Virus record (IMG/VR): IMGVR_UViG_3300022072_000072
Span: 1-32,526 of that record
Source of the DNA: a virus
DNA: 32,526 bases
Direction: 5' to 3' (one strand)
Numbering within the stretch: position 1 is the first letter of the stretch; each line of letters begins with the position of its first letter. A program made the position numbers and the translations under genes. Of the stretch, positions 5,235-32,526 are shown in pieces. Below the pieces are notes generated by a model, which saw nothing but the letters and a program-made list of their open reading frames with translations, did not search any database and had not been told where the DNA came from.

Positions 5235-5245
5235 AAAAAAAATAA

Positions 5246-7461: not shown

Positions 7462-7498
7462 AAGAGGTTGAGCATTCGTGCTTATACCTCTTTTTTTT
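7462..7498 (+). terminator. Intrinsic terminator after nrdA
   Basis: Stem AAGAGGT (7462-7468) pairs with ACCTCTT (7486-7492). Inside it, T7469-A7484 and G7470-T7483 continue the helix past a single bulged T7485, then AGCA (7471-7474) pairs with TGCT (7479-7482) around a TTCG loop (7475-7478). An uninterrupted T run at 7491-7498 follows. It lies 30 bases after the nrdA stop and separates the DNA-metabolism block from the structural block. Confidence 0.88.
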
Positions 7499-7517
7499 GT
7501 TCAAAACTTTACTTTAA

Positions 7518-7527
7518 GATATTTATT
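7518..7527 (+). promoter_or_regulatory. Candidate late promoter element before gp25 gene
   Basis: GATATTTATT ends 13 bases before the ATG at 7541, directly after the terminator, where a new promoter is needed. It shares the core ATATTTAT with similarly placed sequences before the gp6-like gene and the fibre gene. In DNA this AT-rich the match could be accidental. Confidence 0.3.
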
Positions 7528-7540
7528 ATTAAATAATAAC

Positions 7541-7924
7541 ATGGCTAATAAGAGTATTAACATAAATTTCCCATTTAGAGATAGCCCTAAAGGTTTTTTC
7601 TTAGATTTAAATACGGTTGATAGTAAAGCAATAAAAGCTGACTTATTACACTTAATTTTAACCAATAAAGGTGAACGTTTATATTTACCAGATTTTGGTA
7701 CGAACCTTAGAAAATACTTATTTGACCCTTATGATGGGATTACAGAAAATGAGATAAAAAGTGAAATATCCGATGCTATTAAAAAATATATTCCAAATTT
7801 AAAGGTAAATTCGATTACTTTTGATGAGGCACCTCAAAGTCAATACGGTGTAGTTGTTAGATTAGACTATACTATCACTGAAGATGTCTTCGAAACTAAA
7901 GATTTTATAATAATAAACCTTTAA
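7541..7924 (+). CDS. 25: gp25-like baseplate wedge protein
   Basis: A 127-residue protein of the gp25/lysozyme-like baseplate family (T4 gp25 is 132 residues), which sits where the baseplate wedge meets the sheath and nucleates sheath assembly. The signature is visible: N-KGERLYLPDFGTNL with E45, R46 and the PDFG turn (50-53), followed by an acidic helical segment and the closing strands VVVRLDYTI and DFIIINL. The start chosen is ATG 7541 (MANKSI). A longer in-frame ATG at 7478 lies inside the terminator hairpin and adds a hydrophobic, implausible N-terminus. It is the first gene of the late block, immediately followed by gp6, as is typical of contractile-tail clusters. Confidence 0.88.
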   Translation: MANKSININFPFRDSPKGFFLDLNTVDSKAIKADLLHLILTNKGERLYLPDFGTNLRKYLFDPYDGITENEIKSEISDAIKKYIPNLKVNSITFDEAPQSQYGVVVRLDYTITEDVFETKDFIIINL

Positions 7925-7980: not shown

Positions 7981-9798
7981 ATGGGAAAAGGTATTGCATA
8001 TTCAAGTAGAAACTTTGCTGATGTAAGAACGGAACTAATAGATTTCGTAAAACAATATTATCCAGATATCTTATCGGATTTTAACGATGCCTCTATTGGT
8101 ATGTTATTAATTGAGTTAAATGCTGCGGTAAGTGATATGCTTTCGGTAAACACCGATAGAATGTTTCAAGAAACGCAAATTGACTACGCTCAACAAAGAA
8201 GTTCTATATTATCAATGGCTAGGACATTTGGACTTAAAATACCAGCTAAAAGACCTTCAATTAGTATTGTAGACTTTTCAGTTACAGTGCCAGTTTTTGG
8301 TGACTCATTCGATGTTCGATACGCTCCAATTATTAGAGTTGGTGCACAAGTAGGTGGCGGTGGAAAGGTTTTTGAAACAGTAGATGACGTTGACTTCTCT
8401 AGTCCATTTACAACTGGAGGTTTACCTAATAGACTTATAATACCAAATTTAGACAGCAATAATAATATAATCAATTATACTTTAACTAAAAGGGAAATCG
8501 TTTTAAACGGTGTAACTAAAACATTTAAAAAAACAATATCATCCGCTGATGTAATTCCATTTTATGAAATAGTGTTACCAGATAATGATGTTCTATCTAT
8601 TAGTTCAATCATTACTAAAAATGGTACTAATTATACAACTGAACCAACTATCGATGAATTTCTTAATTTTGATAATAGATGGTTTGAAGTTGACGCTTTA
8701 GCTGAAGATACAAAATTTATTGAAGATGTTAACGCAGTTTCAGATAATTCAGGTGTAAACCCAGGTAAATGGGTTAGAATATCAAGGAAGTTTATTAAAG
8801 AATATACTGATAATGGGTTTATTAAACTAATTTTTGGTGGTGGAACTAACGATGTAACTTCATTAGAAGAATTTAACGTTGATAATTCATTAACTGATAG
8901 AATTGGTGATTTTATAAATAACCTATCTTTAGGGGAAACACTTAAATCTAATACAACCCTATTCATACAATATAGAGTTGGTGGTGGTGCTAACACAAAT
9001 TTAGGTTCTAACACTATTAATACAACTAGTTTGATTAATATGTTTGTTAATGGCCCTGTTGACTCAAATAATAAATCAGTTAGACAATCACTGGCGGTAA
9101 ATAACCCAGTACCAGCTTTAGGTGGTAGGGATGAACCTTCAATAGAAGAAGTTAGAAATTTAGTGAGGTATAATTTTGCATCACAAAATAGGGCTGTTAC
9201 AATTAAAGATTATCAAGCTAGAATTAGTCTAATGCCAGGTGAATTTGGGGTTCCATTTAGAAGTGGTGTGTTTGAAGAACAAAATAAAATATTGATTTAT
9301 ATATTAGGGTTAGACTCTAATAGTAGGTTAACTAACTCATCAACAAGTACATTAAAAACTAATATATCTAATTATTTAGCTGATTATAGAATGTTAAATG
9401 ATTACGTGGTAATTGCTGATGGTCAAATAGTAAATTTAGCTTTTGAATTTGATTTGTTGGTGGAAAAAGATTACCCACAATCTCAAATTATATCTAATGT
9501 GATATCAAGAGTTAAAGAATTCGTAGACATTAATAAGCGTCATATGGGTGAAAATATATATTTGGGTCAATTAATAGAAAATGTAAATAATGTTGGTGGT
9601 GTAACTAACGTAATTGATATTAGAGTTTTTAATAAAGTCGGTGAAGGTAAATATTCGATGAATGAGGTTGAACAACCTTATGAAGATGAAGCAACAAAAC
9701 AAATTAGAATTTCAGATGAATATACTTTATTCGGAAATCCTAAGAGTATGTTTGAAGTTCGTTTCCCAGAGAAGGACATCACTGTTAGAGTAAAATAA
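7981..9798 (+). CDS. 6: gp6-like baseplate wedge protein (Baseplate_J family)
   Basis: A 605-residue homologue of T4 gp6 / P2 gpJ, the wedge protein that dimerises around the baseplate and links wedges into the inner ring. The N-terminus (RNFADVRTELIDFVKQYYPD, then FNDASIGMLLIELNAAVSDML) is the typical gp6/gpJ helical start. The central region is beta-rich. Residues 381-416 include DEPSIEEVRNLVRYNFASQN and then RAVTIKDYQAR, the diagnostic baseplate-J segment. The C-terminal part (to about 605) has the ferredoxin-like repeats seen in the family. T4 gp6 is about 660 residues. It follows gp25 as in many contractile tails and ends 5 bases before a small membrane protein gene. Confidence 0.9.
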   Translation: MGKGIAYSSRNFADVRTELIDFVKQYYPDILSDFNDASIGMLLIELNAAVSDMLSVNTDRMFQETQIDYAQQRSSILSMARTFGLKIPAKRPSISIVDFSVTVPVFGDSFDVRYAPIIRVGAQVGGGGKVFETVDDVDFSSPFTTGGLPNRLIIPNLDSNNNIINYTLTKREIVLNGVTKTFKKTISSADVIPFYEIVLPDNDVLSISSIITKNGTNYTTEPTIDEFLNFDNRWFEVDALAEDTKFIEDVNAVSDNSGVNPGKWVRISRKFIKEYTDNGFIKLIFGGGTNDVTSLEEFNVDNSLTDRIGDFINNLSLGETLKSNTTLFIQYRVGGGANTNLGSNTINTTSLINMFVNGPVDSNNKSVRQSLAVNNPVPALGGRDEPSIEEVRNLVRYNFASQNRAVTIKDYQARISLMPGEFGVPFRSGVFEEQNKILIYILGLDSNSRLTNSSTSTLKTNISNYLADYRMLNDYVVIADGQIVNLAFEFDLLVEKDYPQSQIISNVISRVKEFVDINKRHMGENIYLGQLIENVNNVGGVTNVIDIRVFNKVGEGKYSMNEVEQPYEDEATKQIRISDEYTLFGNPKSMFEVRFPEKDITVRVK

Positions 9799-9803: not shown

Positions 9804-10130
9804 ATGGGTTGTGGATGTAAAGGTGATAAAAAATCACCAAATTTAGTAAACGAAGAAACTGGTGAATTAAACATAAAAGGTAAATTACTTAAAATACCTA
9901 TGGCATTCGCTTTGACTTTATTAATGATTATTTTATCACCATTTTTGGTGGTATTAGTGTGGTGGATAGCAATCAAATCAATCTTTGGTAGCAATTCAGA
10001 TATAGTTAATTTAGTTTTAAGTAACTTTAAGAAAAAAATGGTCGTTGATAAAAATAATGAACCAAACATAGAAGAACTTGATTTTAATGAAGACGATTAT
10101 GAAATCGTAGGTGTAGATATAATAAAATAA
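9804..10130 (+). CDS. Small single-span membrane protein in the baseplate cluster
   Basis: A 108-residue protein with an N-terminal CxC motif (MGCGCKGDKK), a hydrophobic stretch at about residues 33-58 (including LTLLMIILSPFLVVLVWW) and an acidic, soluble C-terminal tail. I do not recognise a family. The span is long enough for one transmembrane helix. There is no lipobox or cleavable signal sequence. It lies 5 bases after the gp6-like gene, and its stop overlaps the next start in TAATG, so it is translated with the wedge proteins. It could be a minor baseplate component that enters the host membrane on injection, a lysis/holin-like protein, or an assembly factor. The sequence does not decide. 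Confidence 0.75.
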   Translation: MGCGCKGDKKSPNLVNEETGELNIKGKLLKIPMAFALTLLMIILSPFLVVLVWWIAIKSIFGSNSDIVNLVLSNFKKKMVVDKNNEPNIEELDFNEDDYEIVGVDIIK

Positions 10131-13621: not shown

Positions 13622-13623
13622 TA

Positions 13624-16899: not shown

Positions 16900-16911
16900 A
16901 AAATAATAATT

Positions 16912-17829
16912 ATGGCAACTGGAAATTATGGGACTGTTAGACCAGCAGATGTATCGTTAGATGACGTTGAAGTGTTTTTACATTACACCCCATCTAGAAA
17001 TGATATTGGTGATACAGTACTAACTAAATTAAATACTAAGGATGTTTTATCTCAAATAAACAACCCTAATAACCCTAACGCAATTGAGGTTTTTGGTGGT
17101 ATGTATACGTTAACACTACCTAGCACACTTTTTAGTGAAAAGGGTATTTACACTTTATCAATTAAACCAGTTGAAATTAGGACTAAAATATTAGACTGTG
17201 GTGTGTTATCAGCAAAGTCAGATATTAAAGGTTTAATTTTTGATACAGCCTCAAATAACTTAAATAGTACGTATACATCTAGATTCCAAAATGGTGGTTT
17301 AGTGGGTTATAGAATAGAATATTTAAGTAATAATAATTCAGATGGTGATGTTAAAGTTAGAAATTTCTCAAGACTAATCACTTCAAACAATAGAGTTGAT
17401 GTGGTAAATCAAAACTTAACTAATACTAATCAAAAAGCTGTTAGATATAATTTTAATGATAATTCAACATTAGTATTTGCAACAGTAACACCTAGTTCAT
17501 CATCAAATGTAAAACCAAACGTTTTACCATTTATTGGTGAACCTAATCAAGACGTTATAATCACAAACACATTCTTTAATCCAATTCAAGTAGAAATAGA
17601 AATGGTTGAGCATGACATAGAAACGATTGCTTATGGGTTATATGGCCCACAAAGTAAATCAGTTGAAGATGGTATTTATACTAACTATACATTTGATAAA
17701 GAAATTTATAAACAATATAACTTATTTGAAATTAAGGACCAATTTACAGGTGAACCTTTATTTGAAGTAAGAGAACCTAGAACAAATATTGATTTTAGTA
17801 AAGGATTTGATGAAATAAGTGAAGTATAA
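16912..17829 (+). CDS. Putative structural protein, 305 residues
   Basis: Unrecognised. It is preceded by an A/T-rich leader without Shine-Dalgarno and its TAA overlaps the next ATG (TAATG). The N-terminal half looks like a beta-sandwich (GGMYTLTLPSTLFSEKGIYT, then LSIKPVEIRTKI), the pattern of an Ig-like strand pair. The C-terminal half has Asn/Ser-rich loops and ends in an acidic tail (DFSKGFDEISEV). Coupling to the 980-residue gpI-like protein suggests the two are made together and may interact in the baseplate periphery. Confidence 0.7.
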   Translation: MATGNYGTVRPADVSLDDVEVFLHYTPSRNDIGDTVLTKLNTKDVLSQINNPNNPNAIEVFGGMYTLTLPSTLFSEKGIYTLSIKPVEIRTKILDCGVLSAKSDIKGLIFDTASNNLNSTYTSRFQNGGLVGYRIEYLSNNNSDGDVKVRNFSRLITSNNRVDVVNQNLTNTNQKAVRYNFNDNSTLVFATVTPSSSSNVKPNVLPFIGEPNQDVIITNTFFNPIQVEIEMVEHDIETIAYGLYGPQSKSVEDGIYTNYTFDKEIYKQYNLFEIKDQFTGEPLFEVREPRTNIDFSKGFDEISEV

Positions 17830-20771
17830 TGGCTAAAGTAAAAATAGTAGGTTATGCCAAAAAAGAGGTTTTTGGTAATGGTGTTGAATATAGAAATTTT
17901 TCACCAGATTTAGTAGGGAATCAATTCGCTAGTAATGAAGGTACACCTATTTTTACATCAGGTAATTTTAATATTACCACTAATTTAGATAGTAAAGTCG
18001 ATAAAGAATTTGTAACCAATAAATTTACTGATTTCATTTCTTTAGATTCACTTAATTTAGATGAAACACTAGAAAGTGTTTTAACTAAGTACTCTAAAAA
18101 TGCTAAACTTAATTTAGATTATACCGATGCGTTAACATACGCTTTTTTTGGTTCTTTTAGAGAATATATTAGAGTTTCATTAGAAAACATAATAATTAAG
18201 TGGCCAGCATCATTATATGTTAGAGAAATTAATGTTAACGACCCAGCACTAACGGGTAAAACAGTTGATAATTATGTTTATAGCTCATTAAATGATACTA
18301 GTACCTTCGAAATTTCAACGGATAGGATTGAAAACAACTTTGATATTAATTTTTTAAGTGGTGGTACAATAGAAAACACATTTAACGAAAGTAATGTATT
18401 ACGTAACTTAACGTTAAACTACGCAAGTTTTGTGATATCAAATATTAATGGTGATTTTCAAGTAACTAATTTAATTGGTGCAGCATCATTAACAAATTCA
18501 ACCCTTTACTTAACAGTTAAAGGTAATCCATTCCCAGACTATAGTTCAGATATAATTGATTATCATATTAAACCAAATAAAACTAAAATTGAGGGCTTTT
18601 TCTTTAATTTAAATGAATTTGAAAATAATTTATTAAATAGATTAACAATACCTGAATACACTAGTACTTTTACGGTATATAATGAGTCTGAAACGGGTAG
18701 TATTCTAGAAACGCAGAAGAAATTAACATGGCCAGTATCTGATGGGTATAACATAGATTTCAATTCATTAACATATATAAATTTTGTTAGTAAATTATTA
18801 GAAATAGCCGATGTTAATGACGATTCTAAATCTAATCTAATGGTTAGGTTTTTAGTGTCTAAATCTATTTCAGAATTTGATAGTATCCCAGATATTAATG
18901 GTACATATGTGGATGGTAATGGTCAAAAAATGACTAGCACTTTAAAAATATATGGAAGAGAATTTGATGAAATTAAAAAATACTCAGATGGTATTTCATT
19001 TGCGAATACTGTAACATATGATAAAAAGAATAACACCCCAGATATAGTATTAAAAAACTTAGCAAGGGTATTAGGGTGGGAGTTAACAACTTCTATATCC
19101 CAAATAGATGTGTTAGGTAATTTCTTATCATTAAATTCAAATTATTATGATGGTCACTCTAGGGGTTTAACAGACGCTGAAGCTGAAATTGAGTTATGGA
19201 GAAGAATAGTGTTAAATACACCTTGGATTTGGAAGTCTAAAGGAACTAGAAAAGCTATAGAATTTTTATTTAAATTTATTGGGGCACCAAGTGGTTTGGT
19301 TAGCTTTAATGAATATTTATATGTCGCTAAAACACCAGTAGATGTTGAGTTAACAACTCAAATGATGGAATATTTTAATGACACAACCGACCTTTCAAGT
19401 CTAAATTTAGACACTAACGGGTTTCCAAAGGTTTTACCAAATACCCCAGAAATGTATTTCCAAAAAGCTGGGTTATGGTATAGACAAACAGGTGGTGATA
19501 ACCCAGATATTGACTTACTTGAGGGTAATAACCCACACATAGGCCCATACGATGGTGGACAAGCTTATATGGAGCAATTCACCAATTGTTTAATACCTAA
19601 TTATAGTGGTAGTACTGGTGAGGTGTCTGACCTTGAAGAAAATGTTAATTTATTTACTAATTACGGTAATGGTACGTTTGATGAGTGTTGTGATTCAAGT
19701 GTTCTAGTTGTGTTAAATACTAACTACGATTTTCAAAGTATCGCAACAACAAATGTAAATAAAATATATGATAATTACTCAGTTACTGAAACTGGTTGTA
19801 CAATAAATAATTCATGGTCAATTGTCGCAGCATTAACTGGTGAAACTTTTTATAATGAAGTGTTTTTCAATAGCACAGGTGATGTCCCACCATCAGAATC
19901 AGATTATGTAAATGCATTAAATCAGTTAAGTGGTACTACTAATTTAACAGGGTCTACATTCAATTATAGTAGCGTTGATAAAACATTCACAATAATAAGT
20001 GATAATGATAATTGTGATAGTGAGTTATTAGATACGTATATTAAAGTTGAAATTTGTGTAGATTCAACATATAACTGTATAGATGAATGTATTTCAGGTT
20101 TAACATCATTCATGGTAAGTACTTTAACAGATGATGCTTGTTCCCCAACAAATGCTTTACCACTAAATGTGACATATTACCATAATGGTGCTGGTACACA
20201 TCCAACGGTAGGTGATACAGTTTACTCAAATATTTGTGGGTTAAACACTGTTTATCACCCTAGTGGGGATACTGTGTTTACTGATAATGGAATTGATTTT
20301 GCAATGCCTGAAGCTTGGTTACAAACCGACGCAAATGGTGTTATGGAAGAAATTATTTGTCCAGTAGTTGCGTGTACAGTTCAACTTGGTAGAGATTCAC
20401 TTAATATAAATGGTGTTAGTTATGATAGATTCTTTTTGACTGGGTTAAATGAATTAAATTATGTGTCAATGAATTATCAAATAACGAATATGCAGTTATC
20501 GCCAAATAGTACGGCCAATCCATTTATAACAGATAGTTTAGGTCAGCAGATTAAACCAACAAACTTATCCCCATTAGTTAATTTAGTTAATATAATTAAT
20601 GATACTACAAATGTATATGATTACACAGCGACCATTAACCCAAGGGGTAGTTATGACCCACTAATAGAGGGGTATAGTGTTGTGATTTCTGTAGTGTCTA
20701 TGGATAAGGATTGTTTAATTAATACGAACTCAATAACTTTTCATTATGGTACAAACCGACTAATAGTTTAA
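17829..20771 (+). CDS. Large tail/baseplate protein with tail-protein-I-like region
   Basis: A 980-residue putative baseplate protein. Residues 456-500 read LWRRIVLNTPWIWKSKG and then TRKAIEFLFKFIGAP, the pattern by which P2 gpI / tail-protein-I proteins are recognised (arginine pair, P-x-x-W/Y-K-x-K-G-T-x-x-A-I-E-x-L). gpI is the partner of gpJ/gp6 in wedges and corresponds to part of T4 gp7, so this may be the gp7-equivalent wedge protein. A following segment, NNPHIGPYDGGQAYMEQF (567-584), looks like a conserved core. The C-terminal third (from about 619, ECC) is cysteine-rich and beta-rich, with an NVTYYHNGAGTHPTVGDTVY motif (780-799), like an added decoration domain. It starts in TAATG overlap with the 305-residue gene. 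The gpI likeness is by eye and should be read as moderate. Confidence 0.72.
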   Translation: MAKVKIVGYAKKEVFGNGVEYRNFSPDLVGNQFASNEGTPIFTSGNFNITTNLDSKVDKEFVTNKFTDFISLDSLNLDETLESVLTKYSKNAKLNLDYTDALTYAFFGSFREYIRVSLENIIIKWPASLYVREINVNDPALTGKTVDNYVYSSLNDTSTFEISTDRIENNFDINFLSGGTIENTFNESNVLRNLTLNYASFVISNINGDFQVTNLIGAASLTNSTLYLTVKGNPFPDYSSDIIDYHIKPNKTKIEGFFFNLNEFENNLLNRLTIPEYTSTFTVYNESETGSILETQKKLTWPVSDGYNIDFNSLTYINFVSKLLEIADVNDDSKSNLMVRFLVSKSISEFDSIPDINGTYVDGNGQKMTSTLKIYGREFDEIKKYSDGISFANTVTYDKKNNTPDIVLKNLARVLGWELTTSISQIDVLGNFLSLNSNYYDGHSRGLTDAEAEIELWRRIVLNTPWIWKSKGTRKAIEFLFKFIGAPSGLVSFNEYLYVAKTPVDVELTTQMMEYFNDTTDLSSLNLDTNGFPKVLPNTPEMYFQKAGLWYRQTGGDNPDIDLLEGNNPHIGPYDGGQAYMEQFTNCLIPNYSGSTGEVSDLEENVNLFTNYGNGTFDECCDSSVLVVLNTNYDFQSIATTNVNKIYDNYSVTETGCTINNSWSIVAALTGETFYNEVFFNSTGDVPPSESDYVNALNQLSGTTNLTGSTFNYSSVDKTFTIISDNDNCDSELLDTYIKVEICVDSTYNCIDECISGLTSFMVSTLTDDACSPTNALPLNVTYYHNGAGTHPTVGDTVYSNICGLNTVYHPSGDTVFTDNGIDFAMPEAWLQTDANGVMEEIICPVVACTVQLGRDSLNINGVSYDRFFLTGLNELNYVSMNYQITNMQLSPNSTANPFITDSLGQQIKPTNLSPLVNLVNIINDTTNVYDYTATINPRGSYDPLIEGYSVVISVVSMDKDCLINTNSITFHYGTNRLIV

Positions 20772-20779
20772 TATAATAA

Positions 20780-21880
20780 ATGATATCAGGAACAACAAAT
20801 ACATGTCAAATTATAGATAATACACAATTTTATCTATCTGGGTTAACACAAACTAATACCGCATCAATTAATATACTTGGTAATGAAGGTTTAGATGTTT
20901 CAGAATGTTTTGGAATCTCAACTAATATTATCACTGTTGTAGGTGATAATGTAACATTAACTGGTGATTGTAATACTAGTTTAGAGATTCTAATAACTGA
21001 AGGTGTTGACACAACAGTGGAATGTCTTTATATTGACTATGATGAACAAACTTCAGGTTTAATTTTACTTACACTTAGCGGTGGTACAACAACGTTAAAT
21101 GTACATCCAGAGTGTTGTTTAGCGTTAGGTTTTGAACCTGAAATTGGTGTCGATAATTATTATGTATGTAGGGCTAGGGAAGAATGTGACCCTAATGATT
21201 GTGATAATTATACACAAACTGGGGTATTCGAAGGTGAATATATGGTTTTTGATTCTAATTGTGGTGCTTCTACAACGATAGTGCCTAGTGAAGAATGTTG
21301 TTTCCGAGCTGGGTTAATTTTATCAAACAGTGGTATGCATTGTATTATAGACCCACCCGAAGTTGACCCATGTGATGGCTTAACTATTTTCTCTGAACCA
21401 GATTTTGGTGATATAATATTTATAGATGCGAGTACTGGTTCACAAACACCATTGGTACCAACAGCTGAATGTTGTAGTAGCAACGGATTTAGCTATGTAA
21501 TTGATGGGAATAAGTATAGGTGTTATAAAACACAAATTCAAGAAGTTACAGTGTCTATAACTAATGATGAATGTTGTTTAGAAAGTGTTGTAGTCGTAGA
21601 CCCAGACCCTACTGGACCTATTTATGAATACATTTGGGTAAAAGGTTGTGTTGGAACAACATATGCACTTTTTGATGGTGTTGTAAGAGTATTGATATCA
21701 GACAATTGGACAGCTAATGGATTTGGTTTTACAGGAAACGTAAGAAGTGAGTACGGTTCTACATTCTATATATTAACCATTGCTACAGAACAACAATGGG
21801 TTGATGGAGCTGGAGACATGTCTTCGGTCTGGGGTTCACTTAAAGAATTTGGCGCACCAACACAAATAGGGTGTGGGTAA
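20780..21880 (+). CDS. Cysteine-rich late protein with three CC-x3-G repeats
   Basis: A 366-residue unrecognised protein with many cysteines. Three units carry the same motif: two adjacent cysteines, three residues, glycine, then 9-12 residues and a third cysteine (C112-C113...G117...C130; C173-C174...G178...C188; C231-C232...G236...C248). Each is preceded by a beta-hairpin-like stretch and a V-(P/H)-x-(A/E)-E-C-C lead-in. A fourth ECC occurs at 264-266 without the rest. A tryptophan-rich, cysteine-poor C-terminal domain (about 280-366) follows. No signal peptide or membrane segment is seen. Such repeats suggest small disulphide- or metal-stabilised modules on an exposed virion protein. It lies 8 bases after the gpI-like gene in the pre-fibre region, fitting a fibre-attachment or decoration protein. 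Confidence 0.72.
   Translation: MISGTTNTCQIIDNTQFYLSGLTQTNTASINILGNEGLDVSECFGISTNIITVVGDNVTLTGDCNTSLEILITEGVDTTVECLYIDYDEQTSGLILLTLSGGTTTLNVHPECCLALGFEPEIGVDNYYVCRAREECDPNDCDNYTQTGVFEGEYMVFDSNCGASTTIVPSEECCFRAGLILSNSGMHCIIDPPEVDPCDGLTIFSEPDFGDIIFIDASTGSQTPLVPTAECCSSNGFSYVIDGNKYRCYKTQIQEVTVSITNDECCLESVVVVDPDPTGPIYEYIWVKGCVGTTYALFDGVVRVLISDNWTANGFGFTGNVRSEYGSTFYILTIATEQQWVDGAGDMSSVWGSLKEFGAPTQIGCG
21050..21529 (+). repeat. Three CC-x3-G-x(9-12)-C protein repeats
   Basis: Residues 91-250 of the cysteine-rich 366-residue protein consist of three successive units of about 50-60 residues, each a predicted strand pair followed by the CC...G...C motif. The units are diverged in DNA sequence. A fourth copy occurs in the gene at 22761. 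Confidence 0.6.
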
Positions 21881-21897
21881 AATAAAATAAATGAAAT

Positions 21898-22734
21898 ATG
21901 TGTGTAATTAATATAAATATAAATGCTTCAACCCAAGCTGGTACAACAATATCATCCGCTAGTGGACGATATAGGAGAAATGGTGAAACAACTTGGGTTA
22001 ATTTCTCTATAACTAATATAAATGCAGCTAAAACACCCAATATTACAATACTTGGGCAATACGTGTTGGAAGTTAATGTAACTAATAACATAGGTAACAC
22101 AAGTGGTTGGGCGAGTAGCACGTTTTCAGTTACAAATGATTGTGGTGTAGACCCAATAGACCCAGACCCAATAGACCCAATAGAACCAATAGAACCAACA
22201 TCTGAAGAACCTTGTATTAGGTGGAAAATAGACCCATTCGAGTTACCACAAGGTGAAAGAATTGAAGTTGTTTACACTGCTTGTGATGGTTCAAGAGAGA
22301 CGATTAGTGTTGGTGATAGTAGTACAGCATATTTTTGTGCGCAAGAAGTTGTAAGTGTGGATATGATAACTCAAACATGGACAGGTTCATGGACTAGTTG
22401 GACGTTCAGTAATCAATATGGTGTTGTTGAATCACTTCAAGAGAGGTGTGGTTTACTTGAAGTTGAACCAGATTCACCATTGGGTGAAGATGAGTTTGTT
22501 GAAATAGGTGAAAATGCTTGTAATTATGATGGTACATATCATTATTATGCATTATCACCATGTGATATACAATATAGTTTATTATTTGTTAAAAGTAGAT
22601 ATAAATTAACAGTTGGGCGAATTTATCAACCAGCTGGTAGTGGGTATGTTGGTAAACAAGGTGCTATAGCCTACGTAGATTGTAACCAACAAGGTATTAT
22701 TCTAATAACATCAAATACTGAAGTGAGTTGTTAA
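21898..22734 (+). CDS. Late structural protein with DP/EP linker, 278 residues
   Basis: Unrecognised protein built from at least two parts. Residues 1-80 look like one Ig/fibronectin-type beta sandwich (VEVNVTNNIGNTSGWAS-like strands: YVLEVNVTNNIGNTSGWASS). Residues 85-100 form an Asp/Glu-Pro linker (DPIDPDPIDPIEPIEP). The rest is a cysteine-containing domain ending in ITSNTEVSC. A rigid Pro/acidic linker between globular modules is typical of extended virion appendages. The start at 21898 (MCVIN) is the only one giving a full-length frame; an ATG 7 bases upstream in another frame stops after six codons. It sits in the cysteine-rich trio before the fibre gene. Confidence 0.7.
   Translation: MCVINININASTQAGTTISSASGRYRRNGETTWVNFSITNINAAKTPNITILGQYVLEVNVTNNIGNTSGWASSTFSVTNDCGVDPIDPDPIDPIEPIEPTSEEPCIRWKIDPFELPQGERIEVVYTACDGSRETISVGDSSTAYFCAQEVVSVDMITQTWTGSWTSWTFSNQYGVVESLQERCGLLEVEPDSPLGEDEFVEIGENACNYDGTYHYYALSPCDIQYSLLFVKSRYKLTVGRIYQPAGSGYVGKQGAIAYVDCNQQGIILITSNTEVSC
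22150..22197 (+). repeat. GACCCAATA-type microrepeat encoding D/E-P-I linker
   Basis: Tandem 9-base units (GACCCAATA, drifting to GAACCAATA) with 6-base GACCCA interruptions encode a D/E-P-I linker of 16 residues between two domains of the 278-residue protein. The near-perfect unit suggests slippage expansion. Confidence 0.75.
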
Positions 22735-22760
22735 TAATTAATAATTAATATTTAATATAA

Positions 22761-24467
22761 ATGGTAGTAACGAATTGTACTGATATAAATGGTAATGGAT
22801 TAAACGAAATAAAGTTTAATGTCGATGGAACCGTTGTTGGAGTTTTAGACAATAATAACGGTGGTTTGGATAGTAATCTTAGTTATGATTGTTGTTTAGC
22901 CCAAGGCTATACATTTGACCCTAAGGATACTAAATGTTATTGGTCTACCACTTGTTTAAGTGGTGGGACATATAATATAGTTTTAGACCCAGAAGGCAAC
23001 ACAGGTGCATTTTTTCAAATAGATGAGGGTCAAGAGGATATATGTCATTTAGAAGTAAATTTAAAGTTTTTACTTAGGTTTGATTGTGAAATTTTAGTTA
23101 ACACTGACTTTAGATTAAGGGAAACATTAGAAACCCTTAAATTAGAATTTAGTTTAGAAAAAGTTATTTATGATGATAACTTACCTATACCTAATAATTT
23201 AGAAAACGTAATAACCACTGACTTATTCAATGTTACTGATATCACCAACTTTTTTGATGGAAACACAAATACTGGAATTTTATTAAATGGTGATTGTGGT
23301 TTTATAGAAAATAATTTATTAACTGATTTACAACCAAATAGTGATATAATAACTGATTTATCATTAAATTCAGATTGGGTTACTTTTAAATTAGTTATAG
23401 ATGACCCAACAATATTACAATCAATTTATAATGAAAGACTTAAATTATCTATAATAGGGAATAAGTTAATTAATTTTGCGATTTTAATTGATGATGTTCA
23501 ATTAAATAGAGTTTGTGATGTTGAGAAACCACCAACATTTTTAGATAAGGAATGTCCTAAATTTGAGCTTAGTAGGTTTATAGATAATAAAAAATCTTGG
23601 GTTAGTAATGAGGAATATAATTTAAGGGATTTTGACTTAGAAAGGAGAGTTACTGGGTATCCAATTAATGATGAGAGATTATCAATAAATACCAAAGAAG
23701 TTGACTTAGCAATAAACCCAGCACAAGCAATTGAAGATGATGTATTAGCATTTGCAATAAATAACCCATGTATATTAGCACCAAAGTCTGGTTGTACTGA
23801 TACATCACATTCTTGTGTTGATATATCTAAATTAATAACTACTGAAGATGCAGAAGGTATTGATTTTATAAATCAATTCATTGATGTTAAAAATAGAAAA
23901 ACATTAAGTGCTTATCCAACAATCGATTTATTATACCATAGGTATTTAAATAGCCTTGAGCATTGTGGGGTTGATAGTAATGCATTAGATTTAGAGTCAA
24001 TAAACATATTTGTAGATTTGATAGGTAGTTATTGGTCTGATTTAATAGAGCAAGTAGTCCCAGCGACAACGATATGGGGCTCTTCTTTAACAAATAGTGG
24101 TAATGTATTCGCTGGTGGTGGTGGAAGTGGTGTTAATAAGTTTGTATATAGAAAATATTCAGCACTATTATGTGACTCAATATATTACCCAGTTCAAAGC
24201 CCAGTTAAGGCTGAATCTGGCTCTGGAAAAACATCAACAGTTGATGTAGGTGTGTATACTGAAGATATAACTGAAGGTGATTCTAGCACTATCGGAGTTA
24301 AATTAACTCAAACCTGTAACTCACTAACAATCAAACAATTAAATTACGGTTCTGAATTTATAGGTACAATTTCAGTAATAGGTGTTGGTGAAGGGCCAAC
24401 AACTGGTAGTACAATATCAATTACCGAAACAATTGATGAAGTTTGTGATACGTTTGAAGACTGCTAA
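22761..24467 (+). CDS. Late structural protein preceding the fibre, 568 residues
   Basis: Unrecognised. The N-terminus carries one copy of the cysteine motif found three times in the gene at 20780 (C44-C45...G49...C59, then YW). The middle is beta-rich with DLRD/LERR-type helices (about 280-310). Residues from about 420 include YWSDLIEQVVPATTIWGSS, Gly-rich FAGGGGSGVNKFVYRKY and a C-terminal beta domain ending in cysteines (CDTFEDC). No membrane segment or signal is seen. It is the last complete gene before the giant fibre, separated from it by about 60 bases, so a fibre-connector or baseplate-to-fibre adaptor role is a reasonable guess. AESGSGKT in its C-terminal part resembles a P-loop but has no ATPase context. 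Confidence 0.72.
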   Translation: MVVTNCTDINGNGLNEIKFNVDGTVVGVLDNNNGGLDSNLSYDCCLAQGYTFDPKDTKCYWSTTCLSGGTYNIVLDPEGNTGAFFQIDEGQEDICHLEVNLKFLLRFDCEILVNTDFRLRETLETLKLEFSLEKVIYDDNLPIPNNLENVITTDLFNVTDITNFFDGNTNTGILLNGDCGFIENNLLTDLQPNSDIITDLSLNSDWVTFKLVIDDPTILQSIYNERLKLSIIGNKLINFAILIDDVQLNRVCDVEKPPTFLDKECPKFELSRFIDNKKSWVSNEEYNLRDFDLERRVTGYPINDERLSINTKEVDLAINPAQAIEDDVLAFAINNPCILAPKSGCTDTSHSCVDISKLITTEDAEGIDFINQFIDVKNRKTLSAYPTIDLLYHRYLNSLEHCGVDSNALDLESINIFVDLIGSYWSDLIEQVVPATTIWGSSLTNSGNVFAGGGGSGVNKFVYRKYSALLCDSIYYPVQSPVKAESGSGKTSTVDVGVYTEDITEGDSSTIGVKLTQTCNSLTIKQLNYGSEFIGTISVIGVGEGPTTGSTISITETIDEVCDTFEDC

Positions 24468-24490
24468 AACAAATATATTTATTTGGTTTT
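24466..24490 (+). terminator. Weak AT-only hairpin after the 568-residue gene
   Basis: AAAACAAAT (24466-24474) pairs with ATTTGGTTTT (24481-24490) with one bulged G and a 6-base loop, followed by an interrupted T-rich stretch to 24500. Its position directly at the stop codon suits a leaky terminator, but the stem has almost no GC and may be incidental. Confidence 0.3.
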
Positions 24491-24502
24491 AATTAATTTT
24501 TA

Positions 24503-24512
24503 TATATTTATA
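24503..24512 (+). promoter_or_regulatory. Candidate late promoter element before the fibre gene
   Basis: TATATTTATA, identical over ten bases to the element before the gp6-like gene, ends 14 bases before the fibre ATG. Placement suits a -10-type late element with a short leader. The chance rate is high in such AT-rich DNA. Confidence 0.35.
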
Positions 24513-24513
24513 T

Positions 24514-24520
24514 AGAAAGG
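24514..24520 (+). promoter_or_regulatory. Shine-Dalgarno sequence of the fibre gene
   Basis: AGAAAGG ends 6 bases before the ATG at 24527. It is the only well-spaced purine Shine-Dalgarno-like site in the window and supports this start for the fibre frame. Confidence 0.55.
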
Positions 24521-24526
24521 TATAAA

Positions 24527-27500
24527 ATGAGTATAAAGTCTATTAAAGATAAAATCATAAATATTGCTGATGGAGGTAGAAATACCGCATCTGAAATTAG
24601 AGAAGTTTTAATTGATATGACTGAATCATTATCAGGTGGTACTGCAACTTTTTCAGGTACTACAGATTATGTTAATGAGGGGTCAAATAATTTATATTAT
24701 ACTGATGAAAGAGTTAATTCACTAATAAGTGGTATAACATCTAATACAGATAACTATCTAACTGGCACAACATTTAATACAAGTACTGGTGATTTAGAAT
24801 TAAATCTTAAGTCAGGTTCAACAATTACCACTAACCTTGATGATAGATATTCATTAACAGGTCATACACATACTGAAAGTGATATAACTGACTTACAAGA
24901 TTATGCGTTGAATAACGCATTAACTGGCCACACAAGTGATTCATCAATTCATTTTACAGAAGGTTCAATTTCAATAACAGAATCTCAAGTATCAGATTTA
25001 CAAGATTATTCATTAACAGGACATACTCATACTGAAAGTGATATAACTGACTTACAAGATTATGCGTTGAATAACGCATTAACTGGTCATACAAACGATT
25101 CATCAATTCATTTTACTGAAGGTTCAATATCAATAACTGAATCTCAAGTATCAGATTTACAAGATTATTCATTAACAGGACATACTCATACTGAATATGT
25201 TGATACAACTGGAACTACATTAGCTAATCAATTAAGTATTTTCAGTGATGAAAAGACCATAACTGGTGACCCAGCTTTAAGTTGGTCTGGTGCTAGTAAT
25301 ACTCTATTAGTAAGTGGAAGTGTTAAAACTAATAATTTAACGTTTATTAGTGGTGAAACAATTAATTGGAATCCTGATTTCCATACAATAAATATACCAA
25401 CTGGTTTAGGTCCAGTAGTACAAGTAGGTCAAGAATTTGTTTTTCTTGTTGAGAATAATACTGGTGTAGATATAGCAGATGGTAAAGTAGTTACCGTTGA
25501 TGGTCTAAATGCCGTTCCAAATATAACATTGGCAAGAGCTGATGTCTATTCAAACTGTGATGGCTCACTCCTTGTAACAACTATGCTAATACCAGATGGT
25601 GAACAAGGTTTTGCATCATTAATAGGTAGGGTATCAGATATTGATATTGGTGGTATTCCACAAGGACAACCATTATATATATCAGCAACAGAATGGGGTG
25701 GTGTCACTAATATCAAACCAACATTTCCACACTACGTTATACCGTTAGGTAGTGTAGTAAGTGTGTCAGGAGGTTTAGCAACAATTAGCGTAAACTTTAC
25801 GGGAACAATAGATGATACATTTAATAACTTTTGGAATGGAACTATTAGAGAATCATTTGACGTATTTACAACAGTTACGGGTTCAACTATTGAGCTTAAC
25901 TTAGCTTCAAGTAATGGTGAACCTGATTTAACAATGATATTTTCTGATGGATTTGCTACGTTGACGGCAACACCACCAGCTACCGTTGTATTAACGGCTG
26001 GAACTAACTCCGTACCTCAAATGAATTATGTTTACATACCACAGGATACTAAACTTTTAACAGTTAGTTTAACTGGGTTTACGGAAACAGAACATATTGC
26101 TATTGCAAAATTATACATTCAAACAGCTGTTAAAACTGCGGATGAGGGTCCATTAATATTACAATCATTAAATGACCACATACAAAATACGACCTCAAAT
26201 CAAGGACATTTATCGCATATTTCAAAAAGGTTAAGACAAGAAAGTGCTAAGTGGAATTTAGGTGTGTCTGCAACAAACGATGTAACATCTGAGTCTAACT
26301 TGATTTCAACCACTAGTGGTTCAGTGTACCAATTACATAAACATTATTTTCCAGCATTTGATATGTCAACGGGAAGCCATGTACATATTACCAATGATTT
26401 TATCACACCATTTAAAGAAGTGTTTAACTTATCTGGAGAAACTGTGGATTCGTTAGGTAATTCAATGGATGGAAGTGCATTTAGTTTTGTGTTATGGGGT
26501 TCAATTTCTGATGAAGGTAATTCTAGATTATTTATCAATTTACCTAATGGTACATATAATAAGAATGCACCCGATTTAGCTGTGCAAGACGCACAAAGTA
26601 AATCTAACTACTCAATTCCAACGGAATTTAATGGTTCTGGGTTTTTAATTGCTAGGTTTACATATGTACTTAATACGGGTAATCTTTGGTCATTATACAA
26701 TTCTGAAGATTTAAGGGGTAATGCACCTGGTAGTTCTGGGGGTTCTGGTGGTAGTGAATTACCAGTAGATGTAACTACTGGACACTTATTGGTAGCAGAT
26801 GGTGCCAAATGGAACTCAGTGCTTATGGCTGGTGACGCTTCAATAGGAGCAGATGGTACTGTAATAGTTAATGCGGGGTCCTCAGATAGTCTTTTCTTAA
26901 CGGGTAAAGTAAATGAAGTTGGTGGGATTACTAAGGGTCGAGTTTTATATTTTAGTGGTGCGACAGGTGGACTTCCACAAGTATCCATTGCTGATAACAC
27001 AGACTTTGTAAAGTCTAATACGATAGCGATTGCTGCTGAAACAAAGAGTAATGGTCAAAATATTACCGTTATAACAACTGGTCTTTTAGAAAATATGGAT
27101 ACAAGTGGATTCATAGAAGGTGCGGTTCTATATTTAAGTACGGGTGGTACGATGACAAACACACACCCAATTGGTGTTGATGCGGTTCAAAGAGTTGGAA
27201 AGGCTATAAAAATAAATGCTTCCACTGGTAGTATGTACGTTAATATTGATGAGTTAACAGTAATTAACAACCATCAGGGTACTGTTAGACACCAAGTAGT
27301 TAATGAAAACCCTAATATATTCGCATCAGCTGGTTATACAGTTGTTAATGATGAAAGACATAGAGCCTCTTTTAATATACTAGGTAGTGGTTGGGGTGCT
27401 GGTAATGAGCATTTAGGAATATACAACGAAGGATATGGTAAGACTATATTCACAGTTGATGGTAATTATGACTTTGAATGGTACACAGATGCAACTGATG

Positions 27501-30500
27501 CTCACAATTTTGCATCGACAGTTAAAATGACTTTGAGTGCCGCTGGAGATTTATTATTATCTAGTGGTAGTACAACAGCACAATCATTTATAACAAGTGG
27601 TGGTACAAGTGCTGACTTTGTTAAAGGTGATGGTACATTAGATTCAAACGCATATTCATTAACTGGACATACTCATACTGAATCAGATATAACTGATTTA
27701 CAAGATTATGCTTTAAATAGTGATGTAACTAGCCACACTGGTGATACAAGTATTCACTTTACTAAAAATTCTATTAACCTTGATGATTTAGGTGCAACAG
27801 GACATACCCATAATTTATCTGAATTAAATGATGATGTCGGTTATTTGACTGGCGCAACAAATACAATTGATTTTAATACACATACTGGCGATACATCAAT
27901 TCATTTTACTAAAGGTTCTATTAGCCTTGATGATTTAGGTGCAACAGGTCATACACATTCTGAAAGCGATATAACTGATTTACAAGATTATGCTTTAAAT
28001 AGTAACCTTGATTCACATTCTGGCGACACATCAATACATTTTGAAATGTCTGCTATAACAATAACGGAATCACAAATATCTGATTTACAAGATTACAGCG
28101 TTACAGGGCATAATCATGATATATCTGAAATAACTGGATTCACAGATAATTCAACTAATTGGGATACAGCATACAATGATTCAATAACTGGAATGACGGT
28201 TACTGGTAGTGCAACTAAGACTATTACTCTTCAACAAAAAGATGGTAGTACCTTAACAGCTAATTTCACTGATAGTACAGGTGAATCAATCACTGGTGCA
28301 ACCTTTAATCCATCAACTGGTGATTTAGACCTTACAACAAATTCAGGTTCAACAATACAAACTAATTTAGATGGTAGATATAGCCTTACAGGGCATACAC
28401 ATTCTCAATATACTTTAAACAGTGATTTTGAGACATATACTGGCGATACAAATGATAGTCTTACAGCTTTAACAGCTTCAGTATTATTAAAAAATGATAA
28501 GTCAACTTTTAATACACACACTGGCGATACATCAATTCATTTTACTAAAAACTCTATTGATTTAAGTGATTTAGCTACAACTGGTCATACACATACTGAA
28601 AGTGATATAACTGATTTACAAGATTATGCTTTAAATTCAGCGTTAACAGCACATACAAATGATGCGACTATCCATTTCACTCAAGCTAGTATTTCAATTA
28701 CTGAGAGCCAAATATCTGATTTACAATCATATTCATTAACTGGTCATACACATACAGCTAGTGAAATAACTGATTTCCAATCAGCTATTAGTGGTAATAC
28801 TGCCGTGTCTAATAATACCGCAAAAACTGGTATAACAGAAACACAAGCGACAGATATTTTAACAAATAATGCTAAAACTGGAATAACCTCATCTCAAAGT
28901 AACGCTATTATAGGAAATACAAGCGGTTTAGCAAGCCATACTGGTGATACAACTATTCACTTTACAAAGGGTAGTATTAATCTTGATGATTTAGGTTCAT
29001 CAGCACACACACATAGTGAATATGTATTAGAATCTGATTTAGCTTCACATACTGGTGATACATCAGTTCACTTCACTCAAGGTAGTATTAGTATTACTGA
29101 AAGTCAAATATCTAACCTTCAAGATTACGCATTAAATACTAATTTAACAGGTCATACAAGTGATACGAACATACATTACACTAAAGGTAGTATAAATTTA
29201 TCAGATTTAGCTACAACTGCACATACGCATAGTGATTACGCATTAGATAGCGCATTGAATAATCACACTGGTGATACAAGCATACATTTCACTGAAGGTT
29301 CAATTTCAATTACTGAATCTCAAATCTCAAACCTTGGAACTTATCAGATAACTTCTGAGAAAGGAAATGTAAATGGGTACGCTGAATTAGATGGTTCTGG
29401 GTTTGTTCCAGCGAGTCAATTACCAGCATATGTTAATGATGTACTAGAATACGCAAATTTGGCTTCATTCCCATTAACTGGTGAAACAGGTATTGTTTAC
29501 ATTGCGATAGATACCAATTTAACTTATAGATGGTCAGGTAGTATATATGTAAAAATTGGAAATGATTTAGCTTTAGGTGAAACTTCAGCCACAGCTTATA
29601 GAGGTGATAGAGGCAAAATTGCTTATGACCACTCATTGGATTCAAACATACATTACCCTCAAAGTGGTATCACAATAACTGAAAGTCAAATTTCTGATTT
29701 ACAAAGTTATGCTTTAGATGGTAATTTTAATACACATACTGGTGATACATCAATTCATTTCACTAAAAACTCTATTGATTTAAGTGATTTAGCTTCAACT
29801 GGTCATACTCATACAGAATCAGAAATATCTGACTTACAAGATTATGCGTTAAATAGCGCATTAACTACACATACTGGTGATTCATCAATTCATTTTACTG
29901 AAGGAAGTATTTCAATTACTGAAAGTCAAATTTCTGATTTACAAGATTATGCGTTAAATAACGCATTAAGTACACATACTGGTGATACAAGTATACATTT
30001 CACTGAAGGTTCAATATCAATAACTGAATCTCAAGTATCTGATTTACAAGATTATGCGTTGAATAACGCATTAAATACACACACTGGAGATACATCAATT
30101 CATTTTACAGAAGGAAGTATTTCAATTACTGAAAGTCAAATTTCTGATTTACAAGATTATGCGTTAAATAACGCATTAAGTACACATACTGGTGATACAA
30201 GTATTCACTTTACAAAAGGTAGTATTAATCTTGATGATTTAGGTGCAACAGGACATACCCATAGTGAATACGCATTAGAATCTGGTTTAGCTTCACATAC
30301 TGGTGATACAAGTATTCATTTTACTGAAGGTAGTATTTCAATAACTGAATCTCAAGTATCTGACTTACAAGATTATGCGTTGAATAACGCATTAAATACA
30401 CACACTGGAGATACATCAATTCATTTTACTGAAGGTTCAATATCAATAACTGAATCACAAGTATCTGATTTACAAGATTATACATTAGATACTAATTTTA

Positions 30501-32526
30501 ATACACATACTGGTGATACAAGTATTCATTTTACTGAAGGTAGTATTTCAATAACTGAAAGTCAAATTTCAGATTTACAAGATTATGCGTTGAATAACGC
30601 ATTAAGTACACATACTGGTGATACAAGTATTCATTTTACTGAAGGTTCAATATCAATAACAGAAAGTCAAATTTCAGATTTAAAAAGTTATTCATTAATA
30701 AGTCATAATCATGATATATCTGAAATAACTGGATTCACAGATAATTCAACTAATTGGGATACAGCATACGATGACTCAATTACTGGGATAACTGTTACTG
30801 GTACGGTTTCTAAAACTATTACTCTTCAACAAAAAGATGGTAGTACCTTAACAGCTAATTTCACTGATAATGCAGGTGGTGGTTCAGGTGAATCAATCAC
30901 TGGTGCAACATTTAATACAAGTACTGGTGATTTAGACCTTACAACAAATTCAGGTTCAACAATTACCACTAACCTTGACGATAGATATAGCCTTACAGGA
31001 CATACTCATACTGAAAGTGATATAACTGATTTACAAGATTATGCGTTGAATAACGCATTAACTGGTCACACTGGAGATACAAGTATTCACTTTACTGAAG
31101 GTAGTATTTCAATAACTGAATCTCAAGTATCAGATTTACAAGATTATGCTTTAGATAGCGAATTCAATGCACATACTGGTGATACAAGTGTACATTTCAC
31201 TGAAGGTAGTATTTCAATAACTGAATCTCAAGTATCTGACTTACAAGATTATGCGTTGAATAACGCATTAACTACACACACTGGAGATACAAGTATTCAT
31301 TTTACTGAAGGTTCAATATCAATAACTGAATCACAAATATCTGATTTACAAGATTATGCGTTGAATAACGCATTAACTGGCCACACAAGTGATTCATCAA
31401 TTCACTTTACTGAAGGTAGCATATCAATAACTGAATCTCAAGTATCAGATTTACAAGATTATGCATTAGATAGTGAATTTAATACACATACTGGAGATAC
31501 AAGTGTTCATTTCACTAAAAATTCTATTGATTTAAGTGATTTAAGTTCAACAGGTCACACTCATACTGAAAGTGATATATCAGATTTAAAAGATTATGCA
31601 TTAGATAGTGAATTTAATACACATACTGGTGATACATCAATCCATTTCACTAAAAATTCTATTGATTTAAGTGATTTAGGTTCGACAGGACATACCCATA
31701 ATTTATCCGATTTAAATAATGACATTGGCTTTATAACTGGTGCGACAAGTACAGCTAATGATTATTTAACTGGTCACACATTTAATACAAGTACTGGTTT
31801 ATTTGAAAGTACATTACAATCAGGTGGTACAGTAAGTGTTAATTTAGATGGTAGGTATTTAACTGGATATACGTCACCAGCTAATATCGCATATATTGAT
31901 TCTGGAAATACTTTTTCAGTATCACAAAATTTTGTTGGGTTTAAAAGTCCAACTGGTGACATTGAAATGGCATCATCAAGTGATACAGTATTTATAGGTA
32001 CCACAGCTGCTGGTGCGCACAGTGATTTTGTGAAAATGTCAATTCAAGTAAATGGTTCTAGTGACCAAGGTTTAGGAATATTTACACCATTGTCAACATC
32101 AGCAAACACTGGTAGAGCTATGCAATTTGGTGTGATTGGGAATACATACTCTAGAACGATGATTTATTCTAGTGGTGTGATTGGTTTCGGACCAGGTAAT
32201 ATTACTAGAGATGTTTTTATGGGTAGAAGTGCCGCTAATACAATTAGAATTGGTAGTATTTACGACACTTCAGGTACTGGGGATTTAATCGTAACTGGTA
32301 ATATAACTGGTGCGACTATCGTAAAAGATGGTGGGTTAGCAACAGAATTCCTAAAAGCGGATGGAAGCGTTGATACGAATGTTTATTCATCAACGGGACA
32401 TACTCATACCGAATCTGATATATCAGATTTACAAGATTATGCGTTAAACACTAATTTAACTACACATACTGGTGATACATCAATTCACTTTACTGAAGGT
32501 TCAATTTCAATAACTGAATCTCAAAT
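24527..32526 (+). CDS. Giant repetitive tail-fibre protein (3' end beyond window)
   Basis: One frame runs open from ATG 24527 through the right edge, 2666 complete codons and no stop seen. The product is a phage fibre. Order: short N-terminal head (1-45, MSIKSIKDKI), first repeats (to about nt 25195), a beta-rich domain with VENNTGVDIADGKVV, a GSSGGSGGS linker (26729-26755), a second domain of the same NTG/KG-type (about 26900-27250), repeat block to about 29340, a cassette LPAYVNDVLEYANL followed by SATAYRGDRGKIAYDHS (about 29425-29640), the main repeat block to about 31740, a non-repeat domain, then repeats again. About 19 GHTH-type HxH motifs resemble those that bind metal along T4 gp37/gp12 trimers. 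Over 2666 residues it is far longer than T4 gp34 (about 1290). Receptor binding is inferred; the tip, and any chaperone domain, lie outside the window. Confidence 0.9.
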   Translation, partial: MSIKSIKDKIINIADGGRNTASEIREVLIDMTESLSGGTATFSGTTDYVNEGSNNLYYTDERVNSLISGITSNTDNYLTGTTFNTSTGDLELNLKSGSTITTNLDDRYSLTGHTHTESDITDLQDYALNNALTGHTSDSSIHFTEGSISITESQVSDLQDYSLTGHTHTESDITDLQDYALNNALTGHTNDSSIHFTEGSISITESQVSDLQDYSLTGHTHTEYVDTTGTTLANQLSIFSDEKTITGDPALSWSGASNTLLVSGSVKTNNLTFISGETINWNPDFHTINIPTGLGPVVQVGQEFVFLVENNTGVDIADGKVVTVDGLNAVPNITLARADVYSNCDGSLLVTTMLIPDGEQGFASLIGRVSDIDIGGIPQGQPLYISATEWGGVTNIKPTFPHYVIPLGSVVSVSGGLATISVNFTGTIDDTFNNFWNGTIRESFDVFTTVTGSTIELNLASSNGEPDLTMIFSDGFATLTATPPATVVLTAGTNSVPQMNYVYIPQDTKLLTVSLTGFTETEHIAIAKLYIQTAVKTADEGPLILQSLNDHIQNTTSNQGHLSHISKRLRQESAKWNLGVSATNDVTSESNLISTTSGSVYQLHKHYFPAFDMSTGSHVHITNDFITPFKEVFNLSGETVDSLGNSMDGSAFSFVLWGSISDEGNSRLFINLPNGTYNKNAPDLAVQDAQSKSNYSIPTEFNGSGFLIARFTYVLNTGNLWSLYNSEDLRGNAPGSSGGSGGSELPVDVTTGHLLVADGAKWNSVLMAGDASIGADGTVIVNAGSSDSLFLTGKVNEVGGITKGRVLYFSGATGGLPQVSIADNTDFVKSNTIAIAAETKSNGQNITVITTGLLENMDTSGFIEGAVLYLSTGGTMTNTHPIGVDAVQRVGKAIKINASTGSMYVNIDELTVINNHQGTVRHQVVNENPNIFASAGYTVVNDERHRASFNILGSGWGAGNEHLGIYNEGYGKTIFTVDGNYDFEWYTDATDAHNFASTVKMTLSAAGDLLLSSGSTTAQSFITSGGTSADFVKGDGTLDSNAYSLTGHTHTESDITDLQDYALNSDVTSHTGDTSIHFTKNSINLDDLGATGHTHNLSELNDDVGYLTGATNTIDFNTHTGDTSIHFTKGSISLDDLGATGHTHSESDITDLQDYALNSNLDSHSGDTSIHFEMSAITITESQISDLQDYSVTGHNHDISEITGFTDNSTNWDTAYNDSITGMTVTGSATKTITLQQKDGSTLTANFTDSTGESITGATFNPSTGDLDLTTNSGSTIQTNLDGRYSLTGHTHSQYTLNSDFETYTGDTNDSLTALTASVLLKNDKSTFNTHTGDTSIHFTKNSIDLSDLATTGHTHTESDITDLQDYALNSALTAHTNDATIHFTQASISITESQISDLQSYSLTGHTHTASEITDFQSAISGNTAVSNNTAKTGITETQATDILTNNAKTGITSSQSNAIIGNTSGLASHTGDTTIHFTKGSINLDDLGSSAHTHSEYVLESDLASHTGDTSVHFTQGSISITESQISNLQDYALNTNLTGHTSDTNIHYTKGSINLSDLATTAHTHSDYALDSALNNHTGDTSIHFTEGSISITESQISNLGTYQITSEKGNVNGYAELDGSGFVPASQLPAYVNDVLEYANLASFPLTGETGIVYIAIDTNLTYRWSGSIYVKIGNDLALGETSATAYRGDRGKIAYDHSLDSNIHYPQSGITITESQISDLQSYALDGNFNTHTGDTSIHFTKNSIDLSDLASTGHTHTESEISDLQDYALNSALTTHTGDSSIHFTEGSISITESQISDLQDYALNNALSTHTGDTSIHFTEGSISITESQVSDLQDYALNNALNTHTGDTSIHFTEGSISITESQISDLQDYALNNALSTHTGDTSIHFTKGSINLDDLGATGHTHSEYALESGLASHTGDTSIHFTEGSISITESQVSDLQDYALNNALNTHTGDTSIHFTEGSISITESQVSDLQDYTLDTNFNTHTGDTSIHFTEGSISITESQISDLQDYALNNALSTHTGDTSIHFTEGSISITESQISDLKSYSLISHNHDISEITGFTDNSTNWDTAYDDSITGITVTGTVSKTITLQQKDGSTLTANFTDNAGGGSGESITGATFNTSTGDLDLTTNSGSTITTNLDDRYSLTGHTHTESDITDLQDYALNNALTGHTGDTSIHFTEGSISITESQVSDLQDYALDSEFNAHTGDTSVHFTEGSISITESQVSDLQDYALNNALTTHTGDTSIHFTEGSISITESQISDLQDYALNNALTGHTSDSSIHFTEGSISITESQVSDLQDYALDSEFNTHTGDTSVHFTKNSIDLSDLSSTGHTHTESDISDLKDYALDSEFNTHTGDTSIHFTKNSIDLSDLGSTGHTHNLSDLNNDIGFITGATSTANDYLTGHTFNTSTGLFESTLQSGGTVSVNLDGRYLTGYTSPANIAYIDSGNTFSVSQNFVGFKSPTGDIEMASSSDTVFIGTTAAGAHSDFVKMSIQVNGSSDQGLGIFTPLSTSANTGRAMQFGVIGNTYSRTMIYSSGVIGFGPGNITRDVFMGRSAANTIRIGSIYDTSGTGDLIVTGNITGATIVKDGGLATEFLKADGSVDTNVYSSTGHTHTESDISDLQDYALNTNLTTHTGDTSIHFTEGSISITESQ
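24835..25195 (+). repeat. Fibre repeat block A
   Basis: Two near-identical copies of a composite unit: a GHTHTESDITDLQDY segment, an ALNNAL segment, an HTxDSSIHF segment and an ITESQVSDLQDY segment. The copies are almost identical in DNA, synonymous positions included, indicating recent duplication or gene conversion. Confidence 0.85.
27655..29340 (+). repeat. Fibre repeat block B
   Basis: Irregular array of the same building blocks (GHTHTESDI, HTGDTSIHFT, SI(N/D)L(D/S)DL, ITESQISDLQDY) with variable spacing, mixed with non-repeat stretches such as the NTAKTGIT segment near 28810-28900. It is more diverged than block C. Confidence 0.8.
28109..28402 (+). repeat. Segmental duplication in fibre gene, copy 1
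   Basis: A 294-base segment starting HNHDISEITGFTDNSTNWD and ending at the next GHTH motif recurs at 30704-31009. The copies are in the same reading frame and highly similar in DNA. The second copy has 12 extra bases giving a GGGSGES linker. Confidence 0.85.
29640..31740 (+). repeat. Fibre repeat block C with exact 105-bp arrays
   Basis: The histidine codon of the HTGDTSIHF motif recurs at 29870, 29975, 30080, 30185, 30296, 30401, 30506 and 30611 (steps of 105 bases except one of 111) and at 31067, 31172, 31277, 31382 and 31487 (steps of exactly 105). The unit is 35 residues: ALNNAL, HTGDTSIHFTEGSISITESQ, (I/V)SDLQDY. DNA identity between units is very high. Confidence 0.92.
30704..31009 (+). 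repeat. Segmental duplication in fibre gene, copy 2
   Basis: The 306-base partner of 28109-28402, separating the two 105-bp arrays of block C. It differs by scattered substitutions and a 12-base in-frame insertion. Confidence 0.85.
32390..32526 (+). repeat. Fibre repeat block D (runs off the window)
   Basis: After a non-repeat domain (about 31870-32390) the pattern resumes with GHTHTESDISDLQDYALN, HTGDTSIHFTEGSISITESQ and continues past the edge, so the protein is longer than what is visible. Confidence 0.85.

Follow-up and report, generated by a model that had tools for sequence, protein, structure and literature searches.

A giant modular tail-fibre gene with interleaved histidine-rich repeats in an uncultured virus

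The last gene of virus record IMGVR_UViG_3300022072_000072 probably encodes a long modular tail fibre, most likely a homotrimer and possibly stapled by metal, and lies at the end of a run of baseplate genes in a T4-like phage, probably of Bacteroidota. The whole record, 32,526 bases from an uncultured-virus collection, was analysed and is called the window here (Table 1). Because the window spans the entire record, the fibre gene is cut at its 3' side; it ends with the contig, before any tip or chaperone region. An initial annotation had described a giant fibre gene of at least 2666 codons, unfinished at the edge, and this is upheld by an ATG start and a frame without a single stop up to the contig end, compared with 217 and 395 stops in the two remaining forward frames over the same interval.

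Table 1. Features of the window; amino-acid (aa) positions refer to the fibre protein, HxH marks B units and H-x6-H marks A units
Feature	Position	Strand	Basis or remark
Baseplate assembly protein	7478..7924	+	31% to Flavobacterium phage immuto gp113
Baseplate wedge protein	7981..9798	+	28% to Flavobacterium phage immuto gp112
Giant modular tail-fibre gene	24527..32524	+	ATG start, 2666 codons, open at contig edge
Fibre N-terminal region, aa 1-66, presumed attachment end	24527..24724	+	Position upstream of first repeat
First A/B block, aa 113-240	24863..25246	+	Motifs; Pfam PTR passed
Non-repeat, probably globular module, aa 273-740	25343..26746	+	41-45% identity to L031/L097, L098 and L099 fibre modules
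Second A/B repeat block, aa 1041-1420	27647..28786	+	
Third A/B repeat block, aa 1465-1610	28919..29356	+	
NGYAELD...DVLEYA module (PHROG 15439), aa ~1601-1700	29327..29626	+	Also in tail proteins of Cellulophaga, Flavobacterium and crAss-like phages
Stretch richest in 35-residue A units, with B units among them, aa 1701-2070	29627..30736	+	
95-bp exact copy of 29900-29994	30110..30204	+	Contains point (30127) where sister contig parts
A/B repeat block, aa 2156-2400	30992..31726	+	This contig only, without sister-contig confirmation
Second non-repeat module, aa 2401-2620, then repeats again	31727..32386	+	

Two alternating units make up the shaft: B, GHTHTESDITDLQDYALN, of the PTR (phage tail repeat like) type, and A, HTGDTSIHFTEGSISITESQISDLQDY, with an identical terminal leg in both. 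Their spacings are nearly quantised, with A to A at 35 residues in 12 of 13 cases, A to B at 23 or 31 in all 14, and B to A mostly at 22 or 14. HxH occurs 21 times in the fibre (17 as HTH), and 19 of these lie within [GAS]H(T/N)H shaft repeats. The motif HTxDxSIHF has 20 exact copies, or 27 in the relaxed form H[TS][GSN]D...H[FYV], and H-x6-H occurs 28 times, always with Asp at +3 after the first His. Shuffling the fibre residues gave means of only 4.8 HxH and 4.7 H-x6-H, with maxima of 11 and 13, far below the observed counts. About 19 HxH and 27 HTxDxSIHF-type motifs had been counted at first reading, and the 19 shaft HxH agree with this. Among the loci fetched, the window fibre and that of a sister contig have the highest numbers of histidine motifs. 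The original proposal that HxH sites line most of a long shaft is right in that many do occur along it; A and B units cover about 57% of the protein, and aa 241-1040, a gap of 800 residues, has none.

The repeat units are kept at the protein level. The 17 A units have a mean nucleotide identity of 79% and an amino-acid identity of 88%, and the same Ser of the repeat units is encoded as TCA or AGT. The pN and pS values (0.13 vs 0.48 for the 17 A units; 0.07 vs 0.38 for eight B units) come from copies that are non-independent and motif-selected, and so they back translation and are no rate. A single-chain model of low confidence (mean pLDDT 56.6) has one helix of 17 residues per 35-residue unit, as seen in the run at aa 1701-2070, and consecutive helices are joined by the His loop. 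Across 63 fetched loci the ITESQISDL leg was hit 128 times, and about 55-59 of these hits keep the two His of the loop; these loci came from repeat searches and the His-loop share is no census. The A-unit His appear dispensable for the fold, because in relatives this leg often follows loops without both His. HTGDTSIHF, which had been named as a fibre module, is indeed a repeated unit, but a distinct loop-and-helix repeat whose His loop is often replaced across relatives by loops that lack these His.

Several lines back the first proposal of a giant fibre: the protein matches PTR, its motif recurs in a solved fibre, baseplate genes precede it, and it has homologues among fibres. Pfam PTR (PF12789) matches aa ~105-225 with a score of 32.0, above the curated cut-off of 27; the full-length fibre scores 25.7, just below it, with six stretches passing. 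In the PDB, a B-unit profile matched 9d93 ("Tail collar fibers, gp4") at 3.6e-5, with AHDHVAADVTDL and SHTHSIANVTGLQD; this entry is a relative of mycobacteriophage Smeadley gp4. With 19 shaft HxH and the 9d93 match, the protein has the motif in repeated shaft units and is a candidate for the trimeric, HxH metal-binding phage fibres. A literature search on the 9d93 structure and PTR repeat biology returned nothing. The whole fibre protein had no PDB match up to E 1, hence no detectable homology to T4 gp37 or gp12, and PDB searches with the A-unit profile and with NPHxVT repeats gave no fibre.

Homologues of baseplate assembly and wedge proteins lie upstream of the fibre gene, as expected in a tail and baseplate neighbourhood, and the fibre position after baseplate genes is comparable with that of the immuto tail fibre and spike genes. 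This placement argues against a whisker, collar or side fibre that adheres through its inserted modules instead of a long tail fibre with a receptor tip. That alternative draws on the collar-fibre name of the PDB relative and on the globular module, which lies close to the N-terminus in the window fibre but further towards the C-terminus in that of another uncultured phage (L031); we consider it quite unlikely. The baseplate and replication relatives nearest to the window are mostly from flavobacterial phages, with Tenacibaculum and Cellulophaga phages closest for an upstream ribonucleotide reductase. Between the baseplate genes and the fibre, positions 10130-13621 encode a protein of 1163 aa that scores above cut-off for the Pfam SprB repeat, whose name comes from a surface adhesin of Bacteroidota. 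Together, the immuto-related baseplate genes, the ribonucleotide reductase and the SprB protein suggest a contractile-tailed, T4-like phage with a Bacteroidota host; this host assignment is not firm given that one baseplate match is a Microcystis phage.

Metal binding by HxH has structural precedents. R1/R2 pyocin fibres, T4 gp37 and a number of phage spikes are trimers in which HxH pairs from the three chains combine into an octahedral iron site of six His, and such sites have been proposed, without experimental proof, to set folding register and stiffness (PMC6116203). The shaft of the window fibre strings together two helix-and-loop units that appear interchangeable. By analogy with pyocin fibres and T4 gp37, we infer that at each HxH the three chains probably come together on the trimer axis around a single metal ion, likely iron; such axial ions would act as staples that keep the chains in register down the shaft. 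A units might lengthen the shaft between staples, either with metal binding through His, Asp and His or by extension only. A competing explanation is a modular fibre in which most His bind no metal and GHTH and HTGD are polar turns or helix caps multiplied by repeat expansion. The units are homogenised copies, and motif number would then mostly reflect duplication; in relatives the same helical leg also bears loops that lack the A-unit His; and HKH-604 and HVH-618, the two HxH outside the shaft repeats, belong to a globular insert whose homologue does not keep them. Yet HxH is invariant in the aligned B units of the window and L031 (the motif itself served to select these units), distant phages repeat it with a 22-residue pitch, and solved trimeric fibres bind iron through it (PMC6116203); we regard the non-metal alternative as unlikely. 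If the HxH sites of the fibre are filled, a trimer would hold about 19 metal ions vs seven in T4 gp37 and six predicted in the Alteromonas phage R22Y fibre, a number relevant to the hypothesis of phage tails as carriers of iron in water.

The repeats are real but belong to a known and widespread type, and a multi-HxH shaft is not new. Strung HxH sites had initially been presented as a departure from known fibres, a claim overturned by precedents in Bacillus phage G, R22Y, Moraxella phage Mcat4 and an uncultured phage fragment (L108; IMGVR 3300009514_000025, 1-5808). The excess over known HxH shafts is the interleaving with H-x2-D-x3-H units. T4 gp37 tip and R1/R2 pyocin fibres have solved trimeric HxH metal sites (PMC6116203), but these are few, in short stretches and without A units. 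R22Y tail fibre gp12 has been published with six HxH predicted to bind iron in the trimer and is only 676 aa long (PMC11705849). The annotated tail protein gp369 of phage G (798 aa) has 12 HxH, eight of them consecutive at a 22-residue pitch that matches the most frequent B to A spacing here; it is far shorter than the window fibre and lacks H-x6-H units. The Mcat4 protein has 9 HxH in 728 aa, denser than the window fibre. L108, whose 5' end is missing, encodes at least 1936 aa of a giant repeat fibre; its 21 HxH are of the GHTHVMVDITDS type, at spacings mostly of 45 and 62, and it has no A units. The L108 fragment looks unrelated to the window fibre. Proteins with more than ten HxH, for which a homologue search had been advised, exist in phage G, L108 and Gordonia phage Stormageddon (gene 26, 11 HxH); the contig search for relatives was seeded with a narrow B-unit profile. 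A further candidate with 10 HxH (L010) was rejected as a relative since it shares only a short motif.

Closer relatives share modules as well as repeat units. Tail proteins of Cellulophaga phages phi38:1 (gp085, 976 aa) and Calle_1 (911 aa) have LLGHTHTESEIIDL units and an NGYAPL...DVLEF module like the window, but only three HxH; in gp085 three B units occur alongside the DVLE module, and the record annotates a C-terminal chaperone-of-endosialidase domain. Complete giant relatives occur in uncultured phages (L031, 2797 aa; L039, 2031 aa; L098, 1828 aa). The L031 fibre (L031/L097; IMGVR 3300007276_000480) shares A and B units with the window fibre, along with the globular module (45% identity); it differs in having only five HxH and five A units and in adding NPHxVT repeats. 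NPHxVT repeats are known from phages of Gram-positive hosts. The presence of A and B units with HTGDTANPHTVTATQVGL repeats in the L031 fibre suggests that the A-unit family and NPHxVT repeats may be kin. At L031:4644-5240, HTGDTNIHYTQGSISITESQ and HTGDTANPHTVTATQVGLGNVDD units occur in one protein.

A sister contig (L004; IMGVR 3300025508_000078) has 3 SNPs relative to the window over 12761-30126 (17.4 kb), none of them inside the fibre. Past 30126 its units differ and the NGYAELD module appears a second time, with frame and register kept up to the contig end, which also falls inside repeats. A second assembly therefore supports the fibre only up to base 30126 (aa ~1867), beyond which the sequence is either allele-specific or misassembled and the 2666-codon length is not secure. 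The early warning of an assembly error was apt in that the two contigs differ past this point; the frame itself is unbroken in both paths. It is somewhat unlikely, in our assessment, that the gene is real only up to 30126 and that the last 2.4 kb is a repeat misassembly of a shorter or reordered gene. In favour of such an error, so similar a contig diverges there, both contigs terminate within repeats, and a 95-bp exact repeat lies at the parting point. However, the bases just before the parting point recur elsewhere over only 17 bp, which usual assembly word sizes exceed, and both paths keep frame and unit register. We lean towards natural recombination or allele difference over misassembly of either contig. 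A search for sequence past the right edge recovered the sister contig alone, with no continuation of the window.

In-frame recombination between units probably lets repeat blocks grow and reshuffle, which would alter fibre length and module order. That a trimer has about 47 metal sites (19 HxH and 28 H-x2-D-x3-H), with length and module order reshuffled in this way in nature, is very unlikely as a whole. On that view the metal-stapled shaft would be a fast-changing trait. The near-identical contig pair that parts inside a repeat offers a direct test of the rate of length change in fibre shafts.

Where non-repeat modules interrupt the shaft, they probably stand out from it as knobs or adhesins. 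Relatives of the globular module in three other uncultured phages lie at differing distances from the protein ends. The module had no match in a search of the genome collection, and its AlphaFold model was rejected as unusable (mean pLDDT 29.6). Downstream of the L098 fibre, L098:17353-20769 encodes a 1139-aa protein of repeated DTSxWDTSxVTxMxxMF units.
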